64,000 nt of DNA, from the NCBI RefSeq assembly GCF_900095305.1, contig NZ_FMDO01000013.1, positions 62,001-126,000 of the forward strand. The letters run 5' to 3'. A program made the position numbers and the translations under genes. Position 1 is the stretch's first letter; each line of letters begins with the position of its first letter. Shown piece after piece: positions 18,982-63,940 of the stretch. Source of the DNA: Proteiniborus sp. DW1. GTDB lineage: Bacteria > Bacillota > Clostridia > Tissierellales > Proteiniboraceae. A model generated the notes under the pieces. It made no database searches, was not told the origin of the DNA, and saw only the letters and a program-made list of their open reading frames with translations.

Positions 18982-19917
18982 ATGGAAAGTGTTTCTGCAA
19001 ATAAATTTAGAAAAGTTGGTATAGATACTTCTAAGTCTGAGACAATTGCCCGACCAAGTATGAGCTATTGGCAGGATGCTTGGAGAAGATTAAAGACAAA
19101 TAAGGTTGCTATGCTAGCTATTATAATACTTATGCTTATAGTGATTATGACAATAATAGGCCCACATATAAATGGATTCAAATATGAGGAGATCAACAAA
19201 GACGCAAATGGTGTAGTTAAGATGAACTTAAAGCCAAATTCTGAGCACTGGTTCGGAACAGATATTTTAGGTAGAGATTTGTTTTCTAGAGTATGGCAAG
19301 GAGGACGAGTATCTATAATTATCGGAATTACTGGTGCTTTAATAGCTACTGTAGTAGGTAGTATATACGGCGCCATAGCAGCCTACTTTGGTGGAAGAGT
19401 TGATACAATTATGATGAGAGTCGTTGAAGTTCTAATTTCTATACCTTATCTAATAGTTGTTATTTTAATTTCCATAATTACAGATAGCAAAAGTCTAGGT
19501 ACTATGCTTCTTTCTCTAACTCTAACTGGTTGGTGTGGTATGGCAAGACTAGTTAGGGGACAGATGCTACAGATAAAACAACAAGAATATATTATGGCAG
19601 CAGAAGCCTTAGGTGTTAGGCCATGGAAGATTATAACTAAGCATCTAATACCAAATTCTCTTGGAGTAATTCTAGTTTCCATTACATTTGATATTCCAGG
19701 TTATATATTCTCGGAAACCTTCTTATCTTATATAGGATTGGGTATTCAAGCTCCTAATACTTCTTGGGGAGCATTAGCCTCATCAGCTCAACAATTTATT
19801 ATGTTTTATCCTTATCAAATGTTCTTCCCAGGACTTATGATTGCTTTGACTATGTTGTCATTTACATTACTAGGTGATGGACTTAGAGATGCTTTAGATC
19901 CTAAACTAAGACAATAA
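18982..19917 (+). CDS. oppC: Oligopeptide ABC transporter permease OppC
   Basis: A 311-residue permease of normal architecture: a cytoplasmic N-terminus, first membrane segment near residues 48-68, an extracytoplasmic loop of about 50 residues, then HWFGTDILGRDLFSR and five more membrane segments. The EAA-type loop is YIMAAEALGVRPWKIITKH. It gives a direct in-window reference for the 619-residue OppC-type protein at 59517, which has about 285 extra residues in the same first loop. The gene starts 12 bases after oppB, with GGAGG before the ATG. Confidence 0.92.
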   Translation: MESVSANKFRKVGIDTSKSETIARPSMSYWQDAWRRLKTNKVAMLAIIILMLIVIMTIIGPHINGFKYEEINKDANGVVKMNLKPNSEHWFGTDILGRDLFSRVWQGGRVSIIIGITGALIATVVGSIYGAIAAYFGGRVDTIMMRVVEVLISIPYLIVVILISIITDSKSLGTMLLSLTLTGWCGMARLVRGQMLQIKQQEYIMAAEALGVRPWKIITKHLIPNSLGVILVSITFDIPGYIFSETFLSYIGLGIQAPNTSWGALASSAQQFIMFYPYQMFFPGLMIALTMLSFTLLGDGLRDALDPKLRQ

Positions 19918-42336: not shown

Positions 42337-42615
42337 AATAATACAATATAAAATGTAAAGCAATGATAGGACGAGTAAATTAGTAAACGGTCTAAAGAGA
42401 GGGGAAGCCGTGGCTGAAAGCGACCCTAGATTAGTCTAATTGAAAACTACCCTTGAGTTGTATCTGAAACCAGTTTACTGGGTAAGGATTTCCGTTGATT
42501 ACGTTACAATCACTTGAGTGGAATCTTTAAGCTTTTTAAAGATTCTAATTAGGGTGGTACCGTGGGAACATAGCTCTCGCCCCTAGATAACAATTCTAGG
42601 AGCGGGAGTTTTTTA
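42337..42615 (+). promoter_or_regulatory. Threonine T-box riboswitch
   Basis: The leader has a T-box stem I region (GAGAGGGGAAGCC and GGCTGAAAGC), a candidate specifier ACC at 42449-42451 in the AACTACCCTTGAG context (ACT at 42446 is an alternative), the T-box AGGGTGGTACCGTGGG at 42551-42566, and a terminator. Uncharged tRNA-Thr pairs with the specifier and the T-box and favours the antiterminator, so thrS is expressed when threonine is scarce. Confidence 0.92.
42573..42615 (+). terminator. Regulated terminator of the T-box leader
   Basis: A stem of about 14 bp (CTCTCGCCCCTAGA / TCTAGGAGCGGGAG with one wobble and one mismatch), a 7-base loop and a T-run. Confidence 0.9.
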
Positions 42616-42792: not shown

Positions 42793-44706
42793 ATGTCAAA
42801 AATAAATATTACATTGCCAGATGGCTCAGTTAGACAATACGATAGTGGAATAAAAGTCATAGATATAGCAAAAGACATAAGTGAAGGATTAGCAAGGGTG
42901 GTTTTAGGAGCAAAAGCAAATGGAAGCTTACTTGGACTAAATGATGAAATTTACGAAGATGCAGATGTACAGCTACTGAAGTTCGAAGACGAAGGTGGAC
43001 GTGAAATATTTTGGCACACAAGTGCTCATATGTTAGCTCAGGCTGTAAAAAGACATTTTCCAGACGCAAAGCTAGCCATAGGTCCTGCAATTAAAGATGG
43101 ATTCTATTATGATATAGATGTGGAACACAGGTTTACGCCGGAGGATTTAGAAATATTAGAAAAAGAAATGGCTAAAATAGCTAAGGAAGATTTGGAGCTT
43201 AAAAAGTATGTGCTTCCGAGAGATCAAGCCCTAGATTTTGTAAAGAAATTTGGAGAAACTTATAAAGTAGAGCTTATAGAAGACCTGCCAGAAGATTCAG
43301 AGATTTCATTTTACCAACAAGGTGAATTCATAGACTTATGTAGAGGACCCCATCTGCCAAGTACTAAAAAGGTAAAGGCTGTTAAGCTAACAAGCATAGC
43401 AGGAGCTTACTGGAGAGGCGATGAAAAGAGACCTATGCTTCAGAGAATATATGGAACATCTTACGAGAAGCAAAAAGACCTAGATGCATATCTAGAATTC
43501 CTTGAAGAAGCAAAGAAAAGAGACCACAGAAGGCTAGGTAAGGAACTAGATTTATTTAGTATGCATGGAGAGGGACCAGGATTTCCATTCTTCCATCCAA
43601 AGGGAATGGTATTGTGGAATACTATACAGGACTTTTGGAAAAAAGAGCATGTTAAAAGAGGCTATGGAGAAATTAAAACTCCACTTGTGTTAAATGAGCA
43701 ATTATGGCATCAATCAGGACACTGGGACCATTACAAAGAAAACATGTATTTTACAACAATTGACGAAGGACAATATGCCATTAAGCCTATGAACTGCCCA
43801 GGCTCAATGCTAGTATATAAATCTAAAATGTTTAGCTACAGAGACTTGCCACTTAGATGGGCTGAATTAGGTCAAGTACATCGCCATGAGCTAGCTGGAG
43901 CATTACATGGGCTTATGAGAGTTAGAACATTTGTTCAAGATGATGCTCACCTGTTTATGCTACCAGAGCAGGTAAAGGAAGAGCTAATCAATGTAATAGA
44001 TTTAGCTGACTATATGTATCAAGTATTTGGATTTAAATATCATGTAGAACTTTCTACAAGACCAGAAAATTCTATGGGTACTGAAGAACAGTGGGAAAGA
44101 GCTACAAATAACCTAAGAGAAGCACTAGAAGAAAAAGGTATAGACTATATAATCAATGAAGGTGATGGAGCATTCTATGGTCCTAAGATAGACTTCCATC
44201 TGGAAGACAGTTTAGGACGTACTTGGCAATGTGCAACTATCCAATTAGACTTCCAGATGCCAGAAAGATTTGATTTAACATATATAGGTCAAGACAACGA
44301 AAAGCATAGACCAGTCATGATTCATAGAACTATATTAGGAAGTATGGAAAGATTTATTGGAGTGTTGATAGAGCATTATGCAGGAAAATTCCCTGTATGG
44401 CTATCACCAGTACAAGTAGATATATTACCAATATCAGATAAATACAATGAATACGCATATGGTATTCAAAAGAGACTTCAAGAAAAAGGTGTAAGGGTAG
44501 AAGTAGATGCTAGAGCAGAGAAAATAGGATTTAAAATAAGAGAAGCACAACTTGCTAAAACTCCTTATATGCTAATAGTAGGAGAAAAAGAAGCAGAAAA
44601 TGACCTAGTATCTGTTAGAGTAAGAGACCAAGGAGATATTGGTCAAATGGCAGTGGAAGAATTTAATGAGAAAATAGTGAAAGAAATAGAAGAAAAGGTA
44701 AAATAA
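42793..44706 (+). CDS. thrS: Threonyl-tRNA synthetase
   Basis: A 637-residue class II synthetase that charges tRNA-Thr. Domains in order: TGS (1-62), editing domain (about 65-240) with the HTSAHMLAQAV motif (His-x3-His) and CRGPH, catalytic core (about 240-535) with zinc ligand Cys in KPMNCPGS and motif 2 VHRHELAGAL, and anticodon-binding domain (about 540-637). The length is standard. It is controlled by the upstream T-box. ATG follows AAAGGAGGTTATAAA. Confidence 0.96.
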   Translation: MSKINITLPDGSVRQYDSGIKVIDIAKDISEGLARVVLGAKANGSLLGLNDEIYEDADVQLLKFEDEGGREIFWHTSAHMLAQAVKRHFPDAKLAIGPAIKDGFYYDIDVEHRFTPEDLEILEKEMAKIAKEDLELKKYVLPRDQALDFVKKFGETYKVELIEDLPEDSEISFYQQGEFIDLCRGPHLPSTKKVKAVKLTSIAGAYWRGDEKRPMLQRIYGTSYEKQKDLDAYLEFLEEAKKRDHRRLGKELDLFSMHGEGPGFPFFHPKGMVLWNTIQDFWKKEHVKRGYGEIKTPLVLNEQLWHQSGHWDHYKENMYFTTIDEGQYAIKPMNCPGSMLVYKSKMFSYRDLPLRWAELGQVHRHELAGALHGLMRVRTFVQDDAHLFMLPEQVKEELINVIDLADYMYQVFGFKYHVELSTRPENSMGTEEQWERATNNLREALEEKGIDYIINEGDGAFYGPKIDFHLEDSLGRTWQCATIQLDFQMPERFDLTYIGQDNEKHRPVMIHRTILGSMERFIGVLIEHYAGKFPVWLSPVQVDILPISDKYNEYAYGIQKRLQEKGVRVEVDARAEKIGFKIREAQLAKTPYMLIVGEKEAENDLVSVRVRDQGDIGQMAVEEFNEKIVKEIEEKVK

Positions 44707-45715: not shown

Positions 45716-45865
45716 CCTGCTATTCTGAAGGCTAGTAGTGAATCTAGTATCTATGATATAAATTTAAGCAATACAAGCTATATTATTATAGTCTTTTAAA
45801 TATAATTGTATTGTTGTAATTTTTTTGCAAACTTACTTCGCATGTTACTTGGAGGGGAAAGTAAA

Positions 45866-48800
45866 ATGAATAGTGTGCTAAATGTTGGACTAGATGTAGG
45901 TTCAACTACAGTAAAGATGGTTATATTAGACGAGATGACTAATATTCTATACAAAAAATATTTAAGACATTTTTCAGATATTAAAAATACAGTTATTTCC
46001 ATGTTTGAAGATGCAAAGTCAATTCTAGAAAGAAATAGAATTACAATGATGATTACTGGTTCGGGAGGCCTATCTATTTCTAAAAAATTGGACGTGTCAT
46101 TCATACAAGAAGTTATAGCTTGCACCAATACTATCGAAAGATATATACCTTATACAGATGTTGCAATAGAATTAGGTGGTGAAGATGCTAAGATAACATA
46201 TTTAGGAGATTCCGTTGAGCAAAGAATGAATGGTACTTGTGCTGGCGGAACTGGAGCATTTATTGATCAAATGGCTGCCCTTTTGCAAACAGATGCAGAA
46301 GGACTAAACAATCTCGCTAAAGAATATAGGACAATATATCCAGTAGCATCTAGATGTGGTGTTTTTGCTAAAACTGATATTCAACCTCTATTAAATGAAG
46401 GAGCTGCTAAGGAAGATATTGCAGCATCAGTATTACAAGCAGTAGTAAACCAAACTATAAGTGGATTAGCTCAGGGAAAGCCCATAAGAGGAAATGTAGC
46501 TTTTTTAGGCGGTCCTCTGTATTTTATGTCAGAGCTTCGAAAGAGATTTATTGAGACGTTAAATTTAGAAGAGGATAATATAATATTTCCTGATGATTCA
46601 CAATATTATGTGGCATTAGGAGCAGCCTTATCTTCGAGAAGCGAGGAACCAATCCCCTTTGAATGTCTATATGAAAGGGTACCTGATATAAATAGAATTG
46701 ATACAGATGAAGAAAATAAGCTTATGCCATTATTTAAGGATGAAAATGAATATATTGAATTTAAAGAAAGACATAATAAACACAAGGTTAAGAGAGTACC
46801 TATAGAAGACTATAAGGGAAAAGCTTACTTAGGCATAGATGCAGGTTCTACAACTACTAAGGTTGCATTAATAGATGAAGAGGGAGGGCTATTATATTCC
46901 TTTTATGGAAGCAACATGGGAAGTCCTCTACAATCTACAATGGATGCATTAAAAGACTTATATAATAAGCTAAATGATGATATAAAAATAGTAAATTCAG
47001 CAGTTACAGGCTACGGAGAGCATTTGATAAAATCTGCCCTAAGAATAGATATTGGAGAAATAGAAACTGTAGCTCATTACAAGGCAGCAGAATTCTTTCT
47101 TCCAGGAGTAGACTTTGTCCTAGACATAGGTGGACAAGATATGAAGAGCTTAAAGATTCATGATGGTGTAATAGATTCTATTATGCTCAATGAAGCATGT
47201 TCTTCTGGTTGCGGTTCATTCATAGAAACCTTTGCAAACTCACTTAATATGGAGGTTAAGGACTTTGCGAAAGCTGGCTTAAGCTCTAAGAATCCTGTAG
47301 ATTTAGGAACTCGTTGTACAGTATTTATGAATTCGAAGGTTAAGCAGGCCCAAAAAGAAGGTGCTGATGTTAGTGATATATCGGCAGGAATATCTATTTC
47401 TGTAATCAAGAACGCACTATACAAGGTTATTAGGCTTAGAAGTGTTGAGGAGCTTGGGGAGAAAATAGTGGTTCAAGGTGGAACCTTCTACAATGAAGCA
47501 GTCTTAAGGGCTATGGAAATTATAGTGGATCGAGAAGTAGTTAGACCTGACATAGCAGGAATAATGGGAGCCTTTGGAGCTGCGATAGTTGCAAAGGAAA
47601 AATATAGGGAAGGCTATGAAACTAAACTACTAATGAAGGATGAATTAAAGGACTTCACGTCGGAGATATCAATGAGACGATGTGGATTATGTGGCAACAA
47701 TTGCCTGTTAACAATAAATCATTTTTCTGATGGTCGTGAGTATATATCAGGAAATAGGTGTGAAAGAGGAGCAGGTATTGAAAAAGTAGAAAATGACATA
47801 CCTAATCTTTATGAATATAAATACAAGAGACTCTTTAGCCACTATAAGCCTTTAAAGGTTGAAGAAGCAAAAAGAGGTACTATTGGTATACCTAGAGTAT
47901 TAAATATATATGAGGATTATCCTTTCTGGTTTACATTCTTTACGGAGCTAGGATATAGAGTAGTATTGTCAGGTCGCTCCTCTAAAAAGATTTATGAACT
48001 GGGAATGGAGACTATACCATCAGAATCAGTATGCTATCCTGGTAAGATGGTCCATGGACATGTTATTGATTTATTGAAGAAGGGAATTAAGAAGATTTTC
48101 TATCCTTGTATAGCTCATAATGTAATTGAGGACGAAACAGCAGGTAATCACTATAATTGTCCTATAGTTACATCTTATCCAGAGACTATAAATGCAAATA
48201 TAGAAGAGTTAAGAGAAGATGAAATTACATTCTATCACCCATTTTTACCTATAGATGATTCAAATAGACTTAAGAAAAGGATATATGAAAAGTTGGCTAA
48301 AGAAGGACTAAGCAAAAGTGAAATTTCTAATGCTGTAGATAAGGCATATATGGAGCTAGAAAAATACAAAGCAGATGTTAGGAAAAAAGGCGAAGAAGCA
48401 ATTGCCTATATAGAGAGGAATAATATAAAAGGTATACTATTGGCTGGTCGTCCATACCATATTGACCCAGAGATAAACCACGGAATACCAGAGATGATTA
48501 AATCCTATGGATTTGCAGTTATTTCAGAGGATTCAATATGTCATTTAGCAGAGGTAGAGAGACCTATTAGAGTTGTAGATCAATGGGTATATCATTCAAG
48601 AATGTATAGAGCGGCCACATATGTAGCCAAGCGGAATGACATAGAGCTAGTTCAGCTAAACTCATTTGGCTGTGGATTAGACGCTGTAACTACTGACCAA
48701 GTACAGGAAATACTAGAGCGGTTCGGTAAAATTTATACTGTAATTAAGATAGATGAAATAAATAATCTAGGTGCTGTTAGGATACGTATACGTTCCCTAA

Positions 48801-50143
48801 TGGCAGCCATAGCAGAAAGAGAAAAGCGAAACTTTGAGCCAGTAGAGCTTTATGGCATTCAAAAAAGAGTTATTTTCACAGAGAAAATGAAGAAAACCCA
48901 CACTATTCTGTCTCCGCAGATGTCGCCTATACATTTTCAGTTTTTACAAACTGGATTTAGGAAAGCCGGATATAATATTGAAATATTGCCATCAGTAGAT
49001 AAAAAAGCCATAGATGAGGGGCTTAGATATGTTCACAATGATGCTTGTTATCCTTCCATTATAACCGTAGGACAGATAATGGAGGCTTTGAAGTCTGGGA
49101 AATATGACTTAAACAATACTTCAGTTATCATATCCCAAACAGGAGGAGGATGTAGAGCTACAAACTACATTGCCTTTATAAGAAAGGCCCTAAAAGATGC
49201 AGGTATGGGGCATGTGCCTGTTATATCACTTAATGCTGGAGGACTTGAAAAGAATCCAGGATTTAAAGTAACCATACCTATACTAAACAACCTACTTATG
49301 GGGATGATTTACGGAGATTTACTCATGAGAGTTCTCTATAAAGTAAGACCTTATGAAAAAGTGCCTGGCTCTGCAAATAAGCTGTATGAGTACTGGGTAG
49401 AAAAATGTAAGGATGCTTTGGAAAATGGCACTAGAAAAGACTTCATAAGAAATATTTATGGTATAGTAGAGGATTTTGACAGCCTTGAAATCCATGAGGA
49501 TATGATTAAACCAAAGGTGGGAGTAGTAGGAGAGATACTAGTCAAATTCCATCCTACTGCTAATAATGATATAGTAGGCATATTAGAATCAGAAGGTGCA
49601 GAAGCAGTAGTGCCAGATTTAACTGACTTCTTTTTATATACTGCATTTAACAGCAAGACAAAGTATAGAGAATTATCTGGCTCATATAAGGGCTCATTAT
49701 TTGCAGGAGTTGCAATAGAAGCAATTGAATATTATAGAAAAGATATGAAAAAGGCATTAGCAAATAGTAAAAGATTTACACCGCCTGTATCTATAGAAGA
49801 ACTGGCAGAAGGAGCTGAAAAACACTTATCTTTATGTAATCAAACTGGTGAAGGTTGGTTCTTAACTGCAGAAATGGTAGAGCTTATAAATAGTGGAGTA
49901 CCTAATATAGTGTGCTTACAGCCATTTGCCTGTCTTCCTAATCATATTACTGGAAAAGGCATGATAAAAGAGCTAAGAAGAGCTTATCCTGAATCCAACA
50001 TAGCAGCCATTGACTATGACCCAGGTGCTAGTGAGGTCAATCAGCTTAATCGTATTAAACTTATGTTATCTGTAGCTTTTAAAAACCTTGAAAAAGAAAT
50101 AGAATTAAAAGGGCATCAGCAAGAAGCGGCTTTAACACATTAA
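45866..50143 (+). CDS. Giant 2-hydroxyacyl-CoA dehydratase activase-related protein
   Basis: A 1425-residue protein with two activase (BadF/HgdC-type) ATPase domains, starting at [11 protein letters not shown] and at [12 protein letters not shown] (near residue 325). Each has a cluster-Cys pair: CAGGTGAF with RCGVFAKTD, and CSSGCGSF with [10 protein letters not shown] Cys-rich linker (CGLCGNNC) leads to a DUF2229 domain (about 665-870) and a C-terminal HgdB-like half ([25 protein letters not shown]). Classical activases transfer one electron, driven by ATP, to 2-hydroxyacyl-CoA dehydratases. The function of the fused giant form is unproven. ATG at 45866 lies 9 bases after GGAGGGG; the upstream start at 45806 is rejected. 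Confidence 0.88.
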
Positions 50144-58514: not shown

Positions 58515-59501
58515 ATGATAAAATACACTTTCCAAAGAATTATATATATGATATTTGTATTTTCAATCATGTCTGTTATTCTGTTCACCTTGTACAATAT
58601 GATACCAGGTGACCCTGCTAGAGCAGAGGTACAGGCTTTAAAGGCTACATTGAAGCCTGGTGAATATGAAAAAGCATATCAACAAGCTAGACAGAGACTT
58701 GGATTAGACGACCCACTAATTGTTAGATATGGCAACTGGGCTAAGGGATTACTAAAAGGAGACTTAGGAATGTCTCAAGTTCATAAGCAACCTGTAAGTA
58801 AGATTCTAAGTACTCCTCTTAGTACCACAATATTTATTAACATTTTTTCTGTAATTATAGGGCTTGGGCTAACTATACCCTTGGGAATATTCTGTGCTGT
58901 AAAGAAAAATTCCGCATTTGACAAAGTGGTACAAGTATTAACAATAATAGGATACAGTATCCCAGTGTTTATTTTTGCATTATTATTTATTTATGCATTT
59001 GCTGTTAAGCTTGGATGGTTCCCAGTTAGTGGTATGAAAACTCCTAATTTCCAAGGTACACAGTGGGAAGCATTTAAGGATACAATGAAACATTTAGCTC
59101 TTCCGTTGATGGTTATGACTATAGGTTCTCTTGGTGGAATCACAAGATATGTACGTGCTGCAATGGTTGATGCTCTAAGTATGGATTATATAAAAACAGC
59201 AAGAGCTAAAGGTTTAAAGGAAAAGGTGGTTATATTCTCACATGCTTGGAGAAATGCACTTCTTCCTGTTGTAACTCTGATAATAGGTTGGTTTATGAGT
59301 ATATTCTATGGATCTTTAATTATTGAAAGAATGTTTAATCTAAATGGGCTAGGTAAACTACTGATAGACTCATTGAATAATCAGGATTATAATGTGGTTA
59401 TGGCGATACAATTACTTTATATGTTGATTGCTTTACTTGGTAACCTTATATCAGACCTTAGCTATGGTATTGTAGACCCACGTGTCAGAGTAAATAAATA
59501 G
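58515..59501 (+). CDS. OppB-type ABC permease (second Opp operon)
   Basis: A 328-residue permease with six membrane segments. The first extracytoplasmic loop has IPGDPARAEVQAL and DDPLIVRYGNW, and the EAA-type loop is YIKTARAKGLKEKVVIFSHA. The length is normal for OppB/DppB, so the insertions of this operon are confined to its other permease and one ATPase. ATG follows the weak site AGGCAGGTAATAAA. Confidence 0.9.
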   Translation: MIKYTFQRIIYMIFVFSIMSVILFTLYNMIPGDPARAEVQALKATLKPGEYEKAYQQARQRLGLDDPLIVRYGNWAKGLLKGDLGMSQVHKQPVSKILSTPLSTTIFINIFSVIIGLGLTIPLGIFCAVKKNSAFDKVVQVLTIIGYSIPVFIFALLFIYAFAVKLGWFPVSGMKTPNFQGTQWEAFKDTMKHLALPLMVMTIGSLGGITRYVRAAMVDALSMDYIKTARAKGLKEKVVIFSHAWRNALLPVVTLIIGWFMSIFYGSLIIERMFNLNGLGKLLIDSLNNQDYNVVMAIQLLYMLIALLGNLISDLSYGIVDPRVRVNK

Positions 59502-59516
59502 GGGGAGGTAAAAACA

Positions 59517-61376
59517 ATGACTGTTAAACAACTCAATGAAAATAATAAAGACAATAAAAATAAGAAAAGCTTTTTTAGCCTCCTCTTTTCTAACCTTTTT
59601 GGAAAAAGGAAAGAACTATCCATATTAGAGGAGGAACAGGTTCAAAGTCCTTGGCGAACAGTTATCAGAACTTTTAGGGAAAATAAAGTTGCTATGACTG
59701 GGCTAGTCGTATTTTTATTGATTTTTATAACTGTTATGATAGGTCCATTAATTAAACCTATTGATTTATCCTTTTTAGAAACATCTCAACAGAATGTTGC
59801 TCCTGGCTTTGATATTATGAAATTCCCAGAATCATTACAGGGAAATGTTGCAGACATATCAGTAGGTCCTACTTTTTCTGTAGCTGCATCAAAAGATGGC
59901 AAACTTCATATATGGGGTAAGACTAAAGTTAGTAGTGTTATTGATATTAGAAATTTACCCCAAGATGAGTCAAATAAAACTATAAATTTTGGTAAAGTTG
60001 AAAAAGTAGCTGCTGGGTTTGATCATGTTCTTGTTATGAATGACCAAGGGCAGATCTATGCTTGGGGTAGTAATCGTCAACAACAGGCTAATATTCCTAT
60101 GGAAGTTAGCTATCTTAAAAATATTAAAGATATATATGCGGGTTATCAATGTTCAATCGTGCTAACAGAAGATGGCAGAAGTATCTTTTTTGGTAACCAA
60201 ATGAATAATGATTATAATGAGTTCCATCCTTACCAAGGACAACTACAAAAAATAGCTGTTACTGCAGATGCAGCAGTAGGACTAACTTTTGATGGTCAAG
60301 TTGTTTATTTAGGGATGCAACAAAATGGTTATTCCACAGTACCAAGTAATATGGGAAAAGTTGTAGATATTGCTGCTACAGCTTCTACCATGGCTGCATT
60401 AAATGATGAAGGAAAAGTGATTGTTTGGGGTAATGTGACTAAAGGAGAAGCTGATGTACCTCAAACGGATGAAAAAATCGTATCAATTTATGGTGGAAGA
60501 TATCATTATACTGCAGTAACTGAAAAGGGAAATGTACTCGCTTGGGGTTCAAACTACTATAATGAGACAGTAGTTCCTGAAGAAGTGAAAAAAGCAGATA
60601 TGGATAGAGTTTACACTGGCTTCTACCAAAACTATGGGATTACCAAGGATGGTAAAATCATTACTTGGGGTTTGAAGGGCTATTTATGTGGAACAGATGA
60701 CTTGGGTAGAGATATATTTACAAGATTATTAAATGGTGGACGTATGTCTATGACTATAGGAGCAGTTGCAGTAATTATTTCCACAGTTATAGGAATAATA
60801 GTAGGTAGCTTATCTGGCTTCCTTGGAGGTAAGGTAGACATTGTATTACAAAGACTTTCAGAAGTAGTAGCAGCGTTACCATTTTTGCCGTTTGCAATGA
60901 TTTTATCTGCATTAATAGGAAATTCCTTGACATCTACACAAAGGATAGTCTTGATTATGGTTATCTTAGGATTATTATCATGGACTGGACTACAGAGACT
61001 GGTTCGTGCACAGGTTCTTTCAGTTCGTGAGCAAGAATATGTTGTGGCTGCAAGGTCATTAGGTATCAAAAAAGCTAATATTATTTTTAAACATATATTA
61101 CCTAATGTTATTTCCATTATACTTGTATCAGCAACCTTGAACTTTGCAACTAGTATGCTAACTGAATCATCTTTATCATATTTAGGTTTTGGTGTCCAAG
61201 CACCACATCCAACTTGGGGAAATATGCTTTTTGGAGCAAACAACAGTGTCGTAATCCAGAATTACTGGTGGAGATGGGTATTTGCTTCCATCGTATTAGG
61301 TATATGTGTTATCTGTATAAACCTAATAGGTGACGGCTTACGTGATGCAATTGACCCAAGATCTCAAGAACGTTAA
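59517..61376 (+). CDS. OppC-type ABC permease with an inserted seven-blade RCC1-like propeller
   Basis: A 619-residue protein, twice the usual OppC length. A charged cytoplasmic N-terminus (1-58) and the first membrane span (about 60-82) are followed by residues 111-390 with seven repeats, each ending in a G-x-x-x-x-W/F/L-G strand: HIWGKT, YAWGSN, IFFGNQ, VYLGMQ, VIVWGN, LAWGSN and ITWGLK. These define RCC1-type blades, about 40-47 residues each. At residue 392 the sequence resumes with GTDDLGRDIFTRLLNGG and five membrane spans as in OppC; the EAA-type loop is YVVAARSLGIKKANIIFKH. The propeller must face outward. It is probably a docking or gating domain for the binding protein or a surface ligand. 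The frame is continuous. Confidence 0.9.
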   Translation: MTVKQLNENNKDNKNKKSFFSLLFSNLFGKRKELSILEEEQVQSPWRTVIRTFRENKVAMTGLVVFLLIFITVMIGPLIKPIDLSFLETSQQNVAPGFDIMKFPESLQGNVADISVGPTFSVAASKDGKLHIWGKTKVSSVIDIRNLPQDESNKTINFGKVEKVAAGFDHVLVMNDQGQIYAWGSNRQQQANIPMEVSYLKNIKDIYAGYQCSIVLTEDGRSIFFGNQMNNDYNEFHPYQGQLQKIAVTADAAVGLTFDGQVVYLGMQQNGYSTVPSNMGKVVDIAATASTMAALNDEGKVIVWGNVTKGEADVPQTDEKIVSIYGGRYHYTAVTEKGNVLAWGSNYYNETVVPEEVKKADMDRVYTGFYQNYGITKDGKIITWGLKGYLCGTDDLGRDIFTRLLNGGRMSMTIGAVAVIISTVIGIIVGSLSGFLGGKVDIVLQRLSEVVAALPFLPFAMILSALIGNSLTSTQRIVLIMVILGLLSWTGLQRLVRAQVLSVREQEYVVAARSLGIKKANIIFKHILPNVISIILVSATLNFATSMLTESSLSYLGFGVQAPHPTWGNMLFGANNSVVIQNYWWRWVFASIVLGICVICINLIGDGLRDAIDPRSQER

Positions 61377-62382: not shown

Positions 62383-63940
62383 AAAGGAAAATGATAAAAA
62401 AGTATTAATTAGAATTCAAAACTTAAAACAGTATTTTCCTGTTAAAAAATCATCTTTCTTTCAAAAAGAGCAACTATATGTAAGAGCTAATGATGATATA
62501 TCTTTAGATATTTATGAAGGAGAGACCTTAGGTCTAGTTGGTGAAAGTGGTTGCGGTAAGTCTACTTTGGGTCGTAGCCTTTTACAGCTATACCAACAAA
62601 CAGATGGACGTACCATGTATTATGGTAGGGAACTTGATGAAATAGCACCTGTATATGTTTTAAACACATTAGATAATCTAGTGTCAGAACGACGCAAATT
62701 AAATGAACTAAGAAAAAAAGAAGAAGAAGCTCGAAAAAACTATGAATCACTTCAAGAAGGTGATGAAAAATATAACGCTTTAGAGAAACTTCGTATTGCA
62801 GAAAAAGAAGCTAGAAACAAATTCCTTGATATAGTACAATTAATTGGTGGATTTATATTAGAGGATGATTTGGAACCTATCTCTAAGATTCTAGTTAAAG
62901 AATTTGAAACTAGTATTAAAGCTAGAAAGCTTAGAGATAAAATTAACGAAGAGAAAATAAAACTAGAAGGAGCAAAGGCTCAACTTAAAGAAAAAGGAAA
63001 AAAAGATTCAGAGATAAATAGTGAATTATCAGGTTCTTTAGCGAAGATTAAAGATAATGAAAATGAACTTGGCAAAATAGAAAAAGAATTAGAATCTATA
63101 CGTTTAGAGATTAGCAGTATGTTGAATAAATATAGAGAACATCCTGACTTTGAAAAATATGAGTCTTATAAGGATAAAGGAATTAACTTAGCTAGACTTA
63201 CTGAAGAAGAAATGAGAATACTACGTAAGGATATGCAGTTAATTTTCCAAGATCCATATTCTTCGTTGAATCCTAGATTAACAGTAGGACAGATTATCTC
63301 TGAGGGACTATATGCACACAAGATGTTTTCTAAGAATGATCCAAAGATACAGGATTATTTATTAGAGACCATGGAAAAATGTGGACTAGCACAATATTTT
63401 ATTCACCGTTATCCACATCAATTCTCTGGTGGTCAAAGACAACGTATAGGAATAGCGCGTTCTGTTGCACTTCAACCTAAGTTCATAGTATGTGATGAGG
63501 CTGTATCTGCACTAGACGTGTCAATACAATCTCAGATTATCAACCTACTATTAGATTTAAAAGAGCAAGATGATTTAACTTACTTGTTTATTTCACACGA
63601 CTTAAGTGTTATTAAATATATTAGCGATAGAGTAGGAGTTATGTATTTAGGTAATATAGTAGAACTTGCCAATACTGAGGAGCTATATGCTCATCCAATG
63701 CATCCTTATACAGAGGCATTACTTTCTGCTATACCTACAACTGATGTTGAGAATAAAAAGAAAATTGAAATCCTTGAAGGAGATATACCAAGTCCAATAA
63801 GACCACCTTCAGGATGTAAATTCCATACTAGATGTAAATATGCTACAGATATATGTAAAAAGGTTACGCCAGTATTTGAAGAGGCTAGACCTAACCACTT
63901 TGTAGCATGTCACCACAGGCTTAATACTAAGGATGAATAA
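62375..63940 (+). CDS. OppF-type ABC ATPase with coiled-coil insertion
   Basis: A 521-residue protein, about 200 longer than OppF at 20948. Walker A is GESGCGKS (57-64). After GRTMYYGREL the normal fold is interrupted by about 180 residues of Lys/Glu-rich heptad-like sequence (roughly 95-275). It resumes with MQLIFQDPYSSLNP (Q-loop Gln292), signature FSGGQRQR, Walker B IVCDEAVSALD (Ala replaces the usual Pro) and SHDLS. The C-terminal CKFHTRCKYATDIC segment is present. The insert lies between Walker A and the Q-loop, next to the helical subdomain that contacts the permeases, so it could dimerise, brace the permease or bind a regulator. ATG overlaps the OppD-type stop. Confidence 0.9.
   Translation: MVKKENDKKVLIRIQNLKQYFPVKKSSFFQKEQLYVRANDDISLDIYEGETLGLVGESGCGKSTLGRSLLQLYQQTDGRTMYYGRELDEIAPVYVLNTLDNLVSERRKLNELRKKEEEARKNYESLQEGDEKYNALEKLRIAEKEARNKFLDIVQLIGGFILEDDLEPISKILVKEFETSIKARKLRDKINEEKIKLEGAKAQLKEKGKKDSEINSELSGSLAKIKDNENELGKIEKELESIRLEISSMLNKYREHPDFEKYESYKDKGINLARLTEEEMRILRKDMQLIFQDPYSSLNPRLTVGQIISEGLYAHKMFSKNDPKIQDYLLETMEKCGLAQYFIHRYPHQFSGGQRQRIGIARSVALQPKFIVCDEAVSALDVSIQSQIINLLLDLKEQDDLTYLFISHDLSVIKYISDRVGVMYLGNIVELANTEELYAHPMHPYTEALLSAIPTTDVENKKKIEILEGDIPSPIRPPSGCKFHTRCKYATDICKKVTPVFEEARPNHFVACHHRLNTKDE

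Follow-up and report, generated by a model that had tools for sequence, protein, structure and literature searches.

What is an RCC1-like propeller doing inside the permease of a peptide importer? The question is raised by a reading frame in a 64,000-nucleotide stretch of the Proteiniborus sp. DW1 genome (contig NZ_FMDO01000013.1; hereafter, the window), which had been predicted to encode an OppC-type permease with a complete seven-blade RCC1-like propeller in a loop outside the membrane, where it could select a ligand, hold the lipoprotein, or gate entry. We therefore asked whether the fused protein is real, how widely it occurs, with which genes it travels, and which role is the most probable.

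The propeller and its permease host

The frame is intact and exact and starts with ATG (Table 1). In its translation, the Pfam domains OppC_N (46 bits) and BPD_transp_1 (109.5 bits) follow each other in order, both above cut-off and with RCC1 repeats between them, and each of the 32 proteins in a family alignment (A2) has OppC_N, RCC1_2, and BPD_transp_1. The protein also matches OppC by sequence (phmmer E value of 3e-54), and its best NCBIfam match is the Opp4C equivalog NF045476, at 308.1 bits against a curated cut-off of 350, which it does not reach. By domain order, core fold, and operon partners, the protein is an OppC-type permease.

The inserted segment scored 111 bits against RCC1_2 (cut-off, 22) and 23.5 bits against RCC1 (cut-off, 21.7), and its WD40_RLD/RCC1-like match of 128 bits lay under the cut-off of 150 for that domain. 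It matches BLIP-II by sequence (phmmer E value of 2e-26), and the mean pairwise BLOSUM62 score between its blades was +31.7, versus −23.6 in 2,000 shuffles (standard deviation, 2.4; maximum, −15.0). An AlphaFold2 model of the whole permease, for which 31 relatives served as input, reached a mean pLDDT of 84.3 and a pTM of 0.76; its low-confidence part is the N-terminal tail, and the blocks of residues 91 to 390 were mostly at 86 to 95, with 76 to 83 at residues 141 to 160, the connection after blade 1. In this model, DSSP assigned seven blades of three strands each, starting at residues 111, 161, 203, 243, 282, 321, and 362 and thus spaced by 50, 42, 40, 39, 39, and 41 residues. The structure check proposed with the original prediction thus yielded a closed propeller, and Pfam, the model, and the fold matches together confirm the insert, as modeled, as a complete seven-bladed propeller of the RCC1/BLIP-II type. 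Its bounds are better set at residues 97 to 385 than at the 111 to 390 first given, because the alignment with BLIP-II begins at residue 97.

Table 1. Features of the propeller permease and its operon in the window (residue numbers refer to the encoded proteins)
Feature	Position	Strand	Basis
Family 5 substrate-binding protein (SBP), lipobox-like N-terminus, 637 aa	56412..58325	+	SBP_bac_5; lipobox read from sequence
OppB-type permease, 328 aa, ordinary size	58515..59501	+	Pfam, NCBIfam
OppC-type permease with inserted propeller, 619 aa	59517..61376	+	ORF, Pfam, AlphaFold2 model, 52 distinct full-length sequences
OppC_N domain, residues 44-95, contains TM1 (57-79)	59646..59801	+	Pfam, hydropathy, modeled helix 57-79
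Seven-bladed RCC1/BLIP-II-type propeller (as modeled), residues 97-385	59805..60671	+	Pfam, model, fold matches, blade-repeat statistics
Blade 1 strands, residues 111-134	59847..59918	+	DSSP on model
Blade 2 strands, residues 161-184	59997..60068	+	DSSP on model
Blade 3 strands, residues 203-226	60123..60194	+	DSSP on model
Blade 4 strands, residues 243-264; least conserved together with blade 5	60243..60308	+	DSSP on model, alignment conservation
Blade 5 strands, residues 282-305	60360..60431	+	DSSP on model
Blade 6 strands, residues 321-344	60477..60548	+	DSSP on model
Blade 7 strands, residues 362-385	60600..60671	+	DSSP on model
BPD_transp_1 permease core, residues 426-615	60792..61361	+	Pfam, OppC structures
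OppD-type ATPase, 330 aa	61390..62382	+	Pfam, NCBIfam
OppF-type ATPase with helical insert, 521 aa	62375..63940	+	Pfam, NCBIfam, alignment, model
OppF helical insert, about residues 89-268, modeled helices 102-251	62639..63178	+	alignment, model

In the model, the propeller is placed between TM1 and a long helix starting at residue 400. A hydropathy scan found no membrane-like stretch within the propeller; residues 1 to 56 hold 11 K/R and 7 D/E, and residues 80 to 399 hold 28 K/R and 37 D/E. The region between TM1 and TM2 is described as periplasmic in the Dpp permeases DppB and DppC (PMC12136057). Because of this TM1-TM2 position, the charge and hydropathy pattern, and the Dpp topology, the propeller should lie outside; family topology would make it extracytoplasmic and place it near the docking site of the SBP, which supports the external loop of the original prediction. 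Reasoning from strand topology, both propeller termini would be on the side of the A-B loops, and that side would point toward the membrane. The ordinary OppC at position 18982 of the window has, by our reckoning, about 25 to 35 residues between TM1 and the GTDxxGRD segment, rather than the approximately 50 given previously.

The model can be matched to known structures in two separate parts. It aligns with E. coli OppC (8z21_B) over 277 of the 278 residues of that chain, skipping the insert (Z score of 30.8), and superposes on BLIP-II (3qi0_A) over 256 of 268 residues (Z score of 30.4; 27% identity); in the solved structures matched, permease and propeller matches were always on separate chains. 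The OppC and DppC chains of E. coli (8z21, 8z1v series) and Mycobacterium tuberculosis (8j5q, 8wd9 series) have about 270 to 290 residues and no domain of such size between TM1 and TM2, where the window permease adds about 289 residues. The BLIP-II proteins (Streptomyces; 1jtd, 3qhy, and 3qi0) are described as tight protein binders with seven blades of three strands, the three-stranded blades being their special feature (PMC6121496). However, BLIP-II is a secreted, free-standing beta-lactamase inhibitor, whereas the window propeller forms part of a membrane permease. The propellers of UVR8, HERC2, and RCC1 belong to the same superfamily (Z scores of about 22 to 28) but are eukaryotic, have longer domains (~350 to 420 residues), and serve other functions.

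The solved Opp/Dpp permeases matched here agree with the view that an RCC1 fold lies outside textbook Opp architecture, but this view is qualified by MalF-P2 and AmiC, which are precedents for large extracellular domains on permeases of type I importers. To our knowledge, the fold of MalF-P2 is unrelated to propellers. MalF-P2 is described as a folded periplasmic domain (residues 91 to 271) of a type I importer permease (PMC3150292) and resembles the window propeller by layout, although MalF belongs to a different permease family. In pneumococcal AmiC, a predicted model has the extracellular domains ECD1 and ECD2 (residues 31 to 278), again likened to the window propeller by layout, as a large extracellular part on a peptide-importer permease (PMC11192437). 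At 498 residues, however, AmiC is larger than its partner AmiD (308 residues), and it is the TM1-TM2 coil of AmiD (residues 64 to 99) that occupies the position of the window insert; the passages of that account concerned with the AmiC domains mention no propeller (PMC11192437). In the open-access PMC papers searched, we found no description of an RCC1-OppC fusion, and the relevant passages of PMC10928387 do not describe one. The parts are known, and so, probably, is the principle; as far as could be seen, novelty lies in joining them, in the placement on OppC, and in how widely the fusion occurs.

Large inserts were also observed in other OppCs. On another contig of the same genome (L007:430-2325), a 631-aa OppC carries a large insert behind TM1, and the adjoining ATPase of 483 aa looks extended; in other genomes of the order, related OppCs (L055:168-1925, L056:2229-3995, and L057:3558-5387, minus strand) have a different large insert before the core. 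No Pfam domain was recognized within the inserts of the three proteins scanned (L007, L055, and L056). Because all four OppCs carry large inserts at the position of the propeller, the TM1-TM2 loop of OppC may serve more generally as an insertion site for extra domains.

Distribution, origin, and conservation

In the genome of strain DW1, which has several other OppC-like genes, RCC1_2 was matched only in the propeller permease gene (three matches). With this genome included in each count, 18 full-length propeller permeases were found in 17 of the 100 related genomes, one of which has two copies. Of 391 genomes sampled from the class, 17 have such a permease (12 of 223 genera), and of 398 sampled from the phylum, 14 do (7 of 267 genera); a full-length match was absent from both congeners examined (G001 and G002). 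The two copies in the one genome (G082) lie in tandem propeller operons (L052, 8960-10807 and 16962-18806, minus strand), and they are about 46% to 48% identical to the window protein. A contig scan with the single propeller sequence returned no relative, its six short patterns being probably poorly conserved, and a scan with an alignment (A1) succeeded: among the best 80 loci on named genome contigs, at least 39 (L059 to L097) have a propeller permease, two of them (L083 and L091) truncated by contig ends. The labels of the contigs with propeller permeases among these 80 loci include Tissierellia, Lachnospiraceae, Oscillospiraceae, Erysipelotrichaceae, and Anaerococcus, so that the fusion is shared with other anaerobes.

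After removal of three rows from genomes already represented (L059, L060, and L069) from 54 full-length rows and addition of the window's own sequence, 52 distinct sequences remained, and each of the 52 has seven blades. The search for long OppC homologs and their gene neighbors that had been suggested for this locus thus returned a family of full-length propeller permeases in which the operon is kept. In a tree of the permease core with 122 rows, all 53 propeller rows, counting the two truncated by contig ends, form one side of a branch with an SH-aLRT value of 95; this was a quick tree with several long branches elsewhere. Because the propeller rows form one clade on the permease core, a single fusion suffices, and we rejected repeated fusion, since these 53 rows need only one change. 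Two propeller permeases on contigs of metagenome-assembled genomes (MAGs), labeled Anaerolineaceae (L065) and Treponema (L074), were found among Bacillota rows in the tree, which may reflect transfer or mis-binning.

That the fusion is an assembly or frame artefact joining two genes is refuted by the open frame, by the confident model spanning both parts, and by the occurrence of the 52 sequences in independently assembled genomes, and we consider this explanation virtually impossible. The mis-assembled coding frame, named at the outset as the finding that could overturn the prediction, fails on the same evidence, and propeller permeases also occur in records with no MAG label (Clostridium sp. 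Cult1 and Anaerococcus sp. Marseille-Q5996). RCC1 repeats as such were found in 100 of 398 genomes of the phylum. Among the 30 RCC1 loci listed, 16 encode proteins with a single hydrophobic span near the start, and the only one with more than one span (L164) is a member of the propeller permease family; the single-span proteins fit a secreted-type source of the propeller domain.

Across the 52 sequences, mean conservation was 0.46 in the propeller versus 0.67 in the permease core, and blades 4 and 5 were conserved less than the other blades. Within the propeller, H170, Q211, H330, Q371, and Y373 are strongly conserved, although some of these residues may be blade-structural. We found no conserved propeller face in these sequences, with values of 0.53 for the A-B loops, 0.50 for the B-C turns, and 0.36 for the C-D-A connections. 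In all eight pairs above 80% identity, the dN/dS of the propeller was low (0.03 to 0.36, versus 0.035 to 0.131 in the permease core), although the propeller values are rough in the five pairs for which propeller dS exceeded 1. The propeller is under purifying selection.

The operon and its extended OppF

The recurring gene order is SBP-OppB-OppC/propeller-OppD-OppF. Among 53 propeller loci, the SBP was found in 44, OppB in 51, OppD in 52, and OppF in 46; in the nine loci with no SBP gene, the contig stops either within the operon or no more than about 500 bases upstream of OppB. The closest solved relatives of the window SBP are OppA proteins. In the loci viewed, no sixth gene was conserved beside the operon, and we found no neighbor outside the operon that recurs so as to indicate the substrate.

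The OppF of the window is itself enlarged by an insert that is modeled with high confidence as long helices. This insert is present in 44 of the 46 OppFs of propeller operons, and none of 26 OppF-like frames next to propeller-less OppCs reaches 440 aa (maximum, 436), a line that was picked after the lengths were seen. Because the propeller rows form one clade, a Fisher value for the joint occurrence of insert and propeller does not rest on independent samples. The insert as an obligate partner of the propeller was rejected, since two operons (L062 and L087) keep the propeller with an OppF that has no insert. The C-terminal parts of both ATPases in the window have four cysteines spaced as in the [4Fe-4S] site described for DppD (PMC12136057), and a loose form of this motif was found in 49 of 52 OppDs and 45 of 46 OppFs of propeller operons.

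Elsewhere in the window, a T-box leader (RF00230, 100.9 bits, Rfam; 42354-42587, plus strand) was found upstream of the threonine--tRNA ligase gene thrS (42793-44706, plus strand; 752.8 bits). Further downstream (45806-50143, plus strand) lies the gene for a 1,445-aa protein that matches the acyl-CoA dehydratase activase domain TIGR00241 at 247.7 bits.

Possible roles of the propeller

The most economical reading, drawn by analogy, is that the propeller enlarges the contact of the SBP with the OppC side of the permease. Three relatives of the system provide the analogy: in Dpp, a "scoop" of DppB fills the cleft of DppA (PMC12136057); in pneumococcal Ami, a prediction has the AmiC domains clamping the SBP, and the TM1-TM2 coil of AmiD touches lobe 2 (PMC11192437); and in the maltose importer, MalF-P2 contacts MalE (PMC3150292). 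The propeller takes the place of the AmiD coil on the OppC-type subunit, and its superfamily includes several proteins that bind other proteins tightly; the purifying selection on it also speaks for this reading. We give about an even chance to the proposal that the locus encodes a five-gene oligopeptide-type (type I) ABC importer in which the propeller in the TM1-TM2 loop of OppC provides the SBP with a docking platform or a clamp. As a platform for protein binding, the propeller would stand next to the pore on the outer face and would dock or clamp the membrane-tethered SBP from the side of OppC, across from the OppB loop, which in relatives enters the SBP cleft. Such a clamp would raise the local concentration of loaded SBP and help to place it over the pore, and it would perhaps seal the entrance, as is thought for MalF-P2 and the AmiC extracellular domains.

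Evolutionary distances were compared in 38 operons with five near-full-length genes, out of the 53 loci, and partial correlations were calculated for 36 of them, with L062 and L087 (no OppF insert) left out; distances based on fewer than 15 shared columns were replaced by the mean. Beyond permease core, OppB, OppD, and OppF core, propeller and SBP distances gave a partial r of 0.49, a value reached in 0 of 2,000 permutations, and the split by group gave 0.53 (11 loci) and 0.38 (25 loci). The propeller correlated at 0.52 with the C-terminal half of the SBP, at 0.30 with its N-terminal half, and at 0.47 with the periplasmic loop of OppB. The controls were not zero, however (propeller and OppF insert, 0.28; propeller and cytoplasmic N-tail, 0.36; OppF insert and SBP, 0.34), and correlations of this kind can be inflated by saturation in rapidly evolving parts. 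Moreover, the signal is not special to the propeller, because in the 38 operons the SBP correlates more with the permease core (raw r, 0.905; partial r, 0.70) than with the propeller (raw r, 0.825; partial r, 0.53). The correlation is therefore only suggestive of contact, a hint and no more. It also speaks against a clamp that no face of the propeller stood out by conservation, that ordinary OppCs manage without a propeller, and that propellers bind other things as well. Among the three roles originally offered, holding the lipoprotein is nevertheless the best supported, if indirectly, by the conservation of the operon and, with the caveats above, by the distance correlation.

Other roles have to be weighed against the docking platform. 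The propeller could itself bind the substrate (a peptide, glycopeptide, or glycan), concentrating or pre-selecting it at the pore and sharing this task with the SBP. The external position beside the pore would allow this, the variable blades 4 and 5 would suit changing ligands, and other propeller lineages are described as binding carbohydrates (PMC9218822). However, BLIP-II, the nearest fold, is a binder of proteins (PMC6121496), and capture is already served by the SBP, because its gene is present wherever the contig extends far enough; we therefore consider substrate binding by the propeller unlikely. A slightly smaller chance still is given to a passive spacer, shield, or stabilizer with no specific partner, kept since its removal would disturb folding. 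Such a role would agree with a domain that evolves faster than the core and in which we found no conserved face, but it sits poorly with the constancy of the seven blades, with the low dN/dS, and with the strongly conserved propeller residues, even if some of these only maintain the blades. It is also conceivable, and in our view the least probable of these roles, that the propeller binds an additional protein outside the cell, for example a peptidase or an enzyme acting on the cell wall, whose products would then be fed into the importer. The fold relatives BLIP-II, UVR8, HERC2, and RCC1 are all protein binders, and RCC1-repeat proteins are common in the phylum, as counted above; against this stands the lack of a sixth conserved gene beside the operon in the loci viewed, although a partner could be encoded elsewhere.

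Beyond the docking platform as such, we tentatively raise a broader possibility, to which we give well below even weight: the BLIP-II-like propeller may be a second, permease-borne receptor that couples high-affinity capture of a partner, either the SBP or an extracellular peptidase, to pore opening, and the family may then represent an undescribed subclass of importers. For ABC importers, a central question is how an SBP locates and engages its permease and how the two divide specificity between them. In the present family, which is broad enough for comparison and simple enough for deletion or swapping of the domain, a fold well studied for its binding of proteins would be situated at the junction of SBP and permease.
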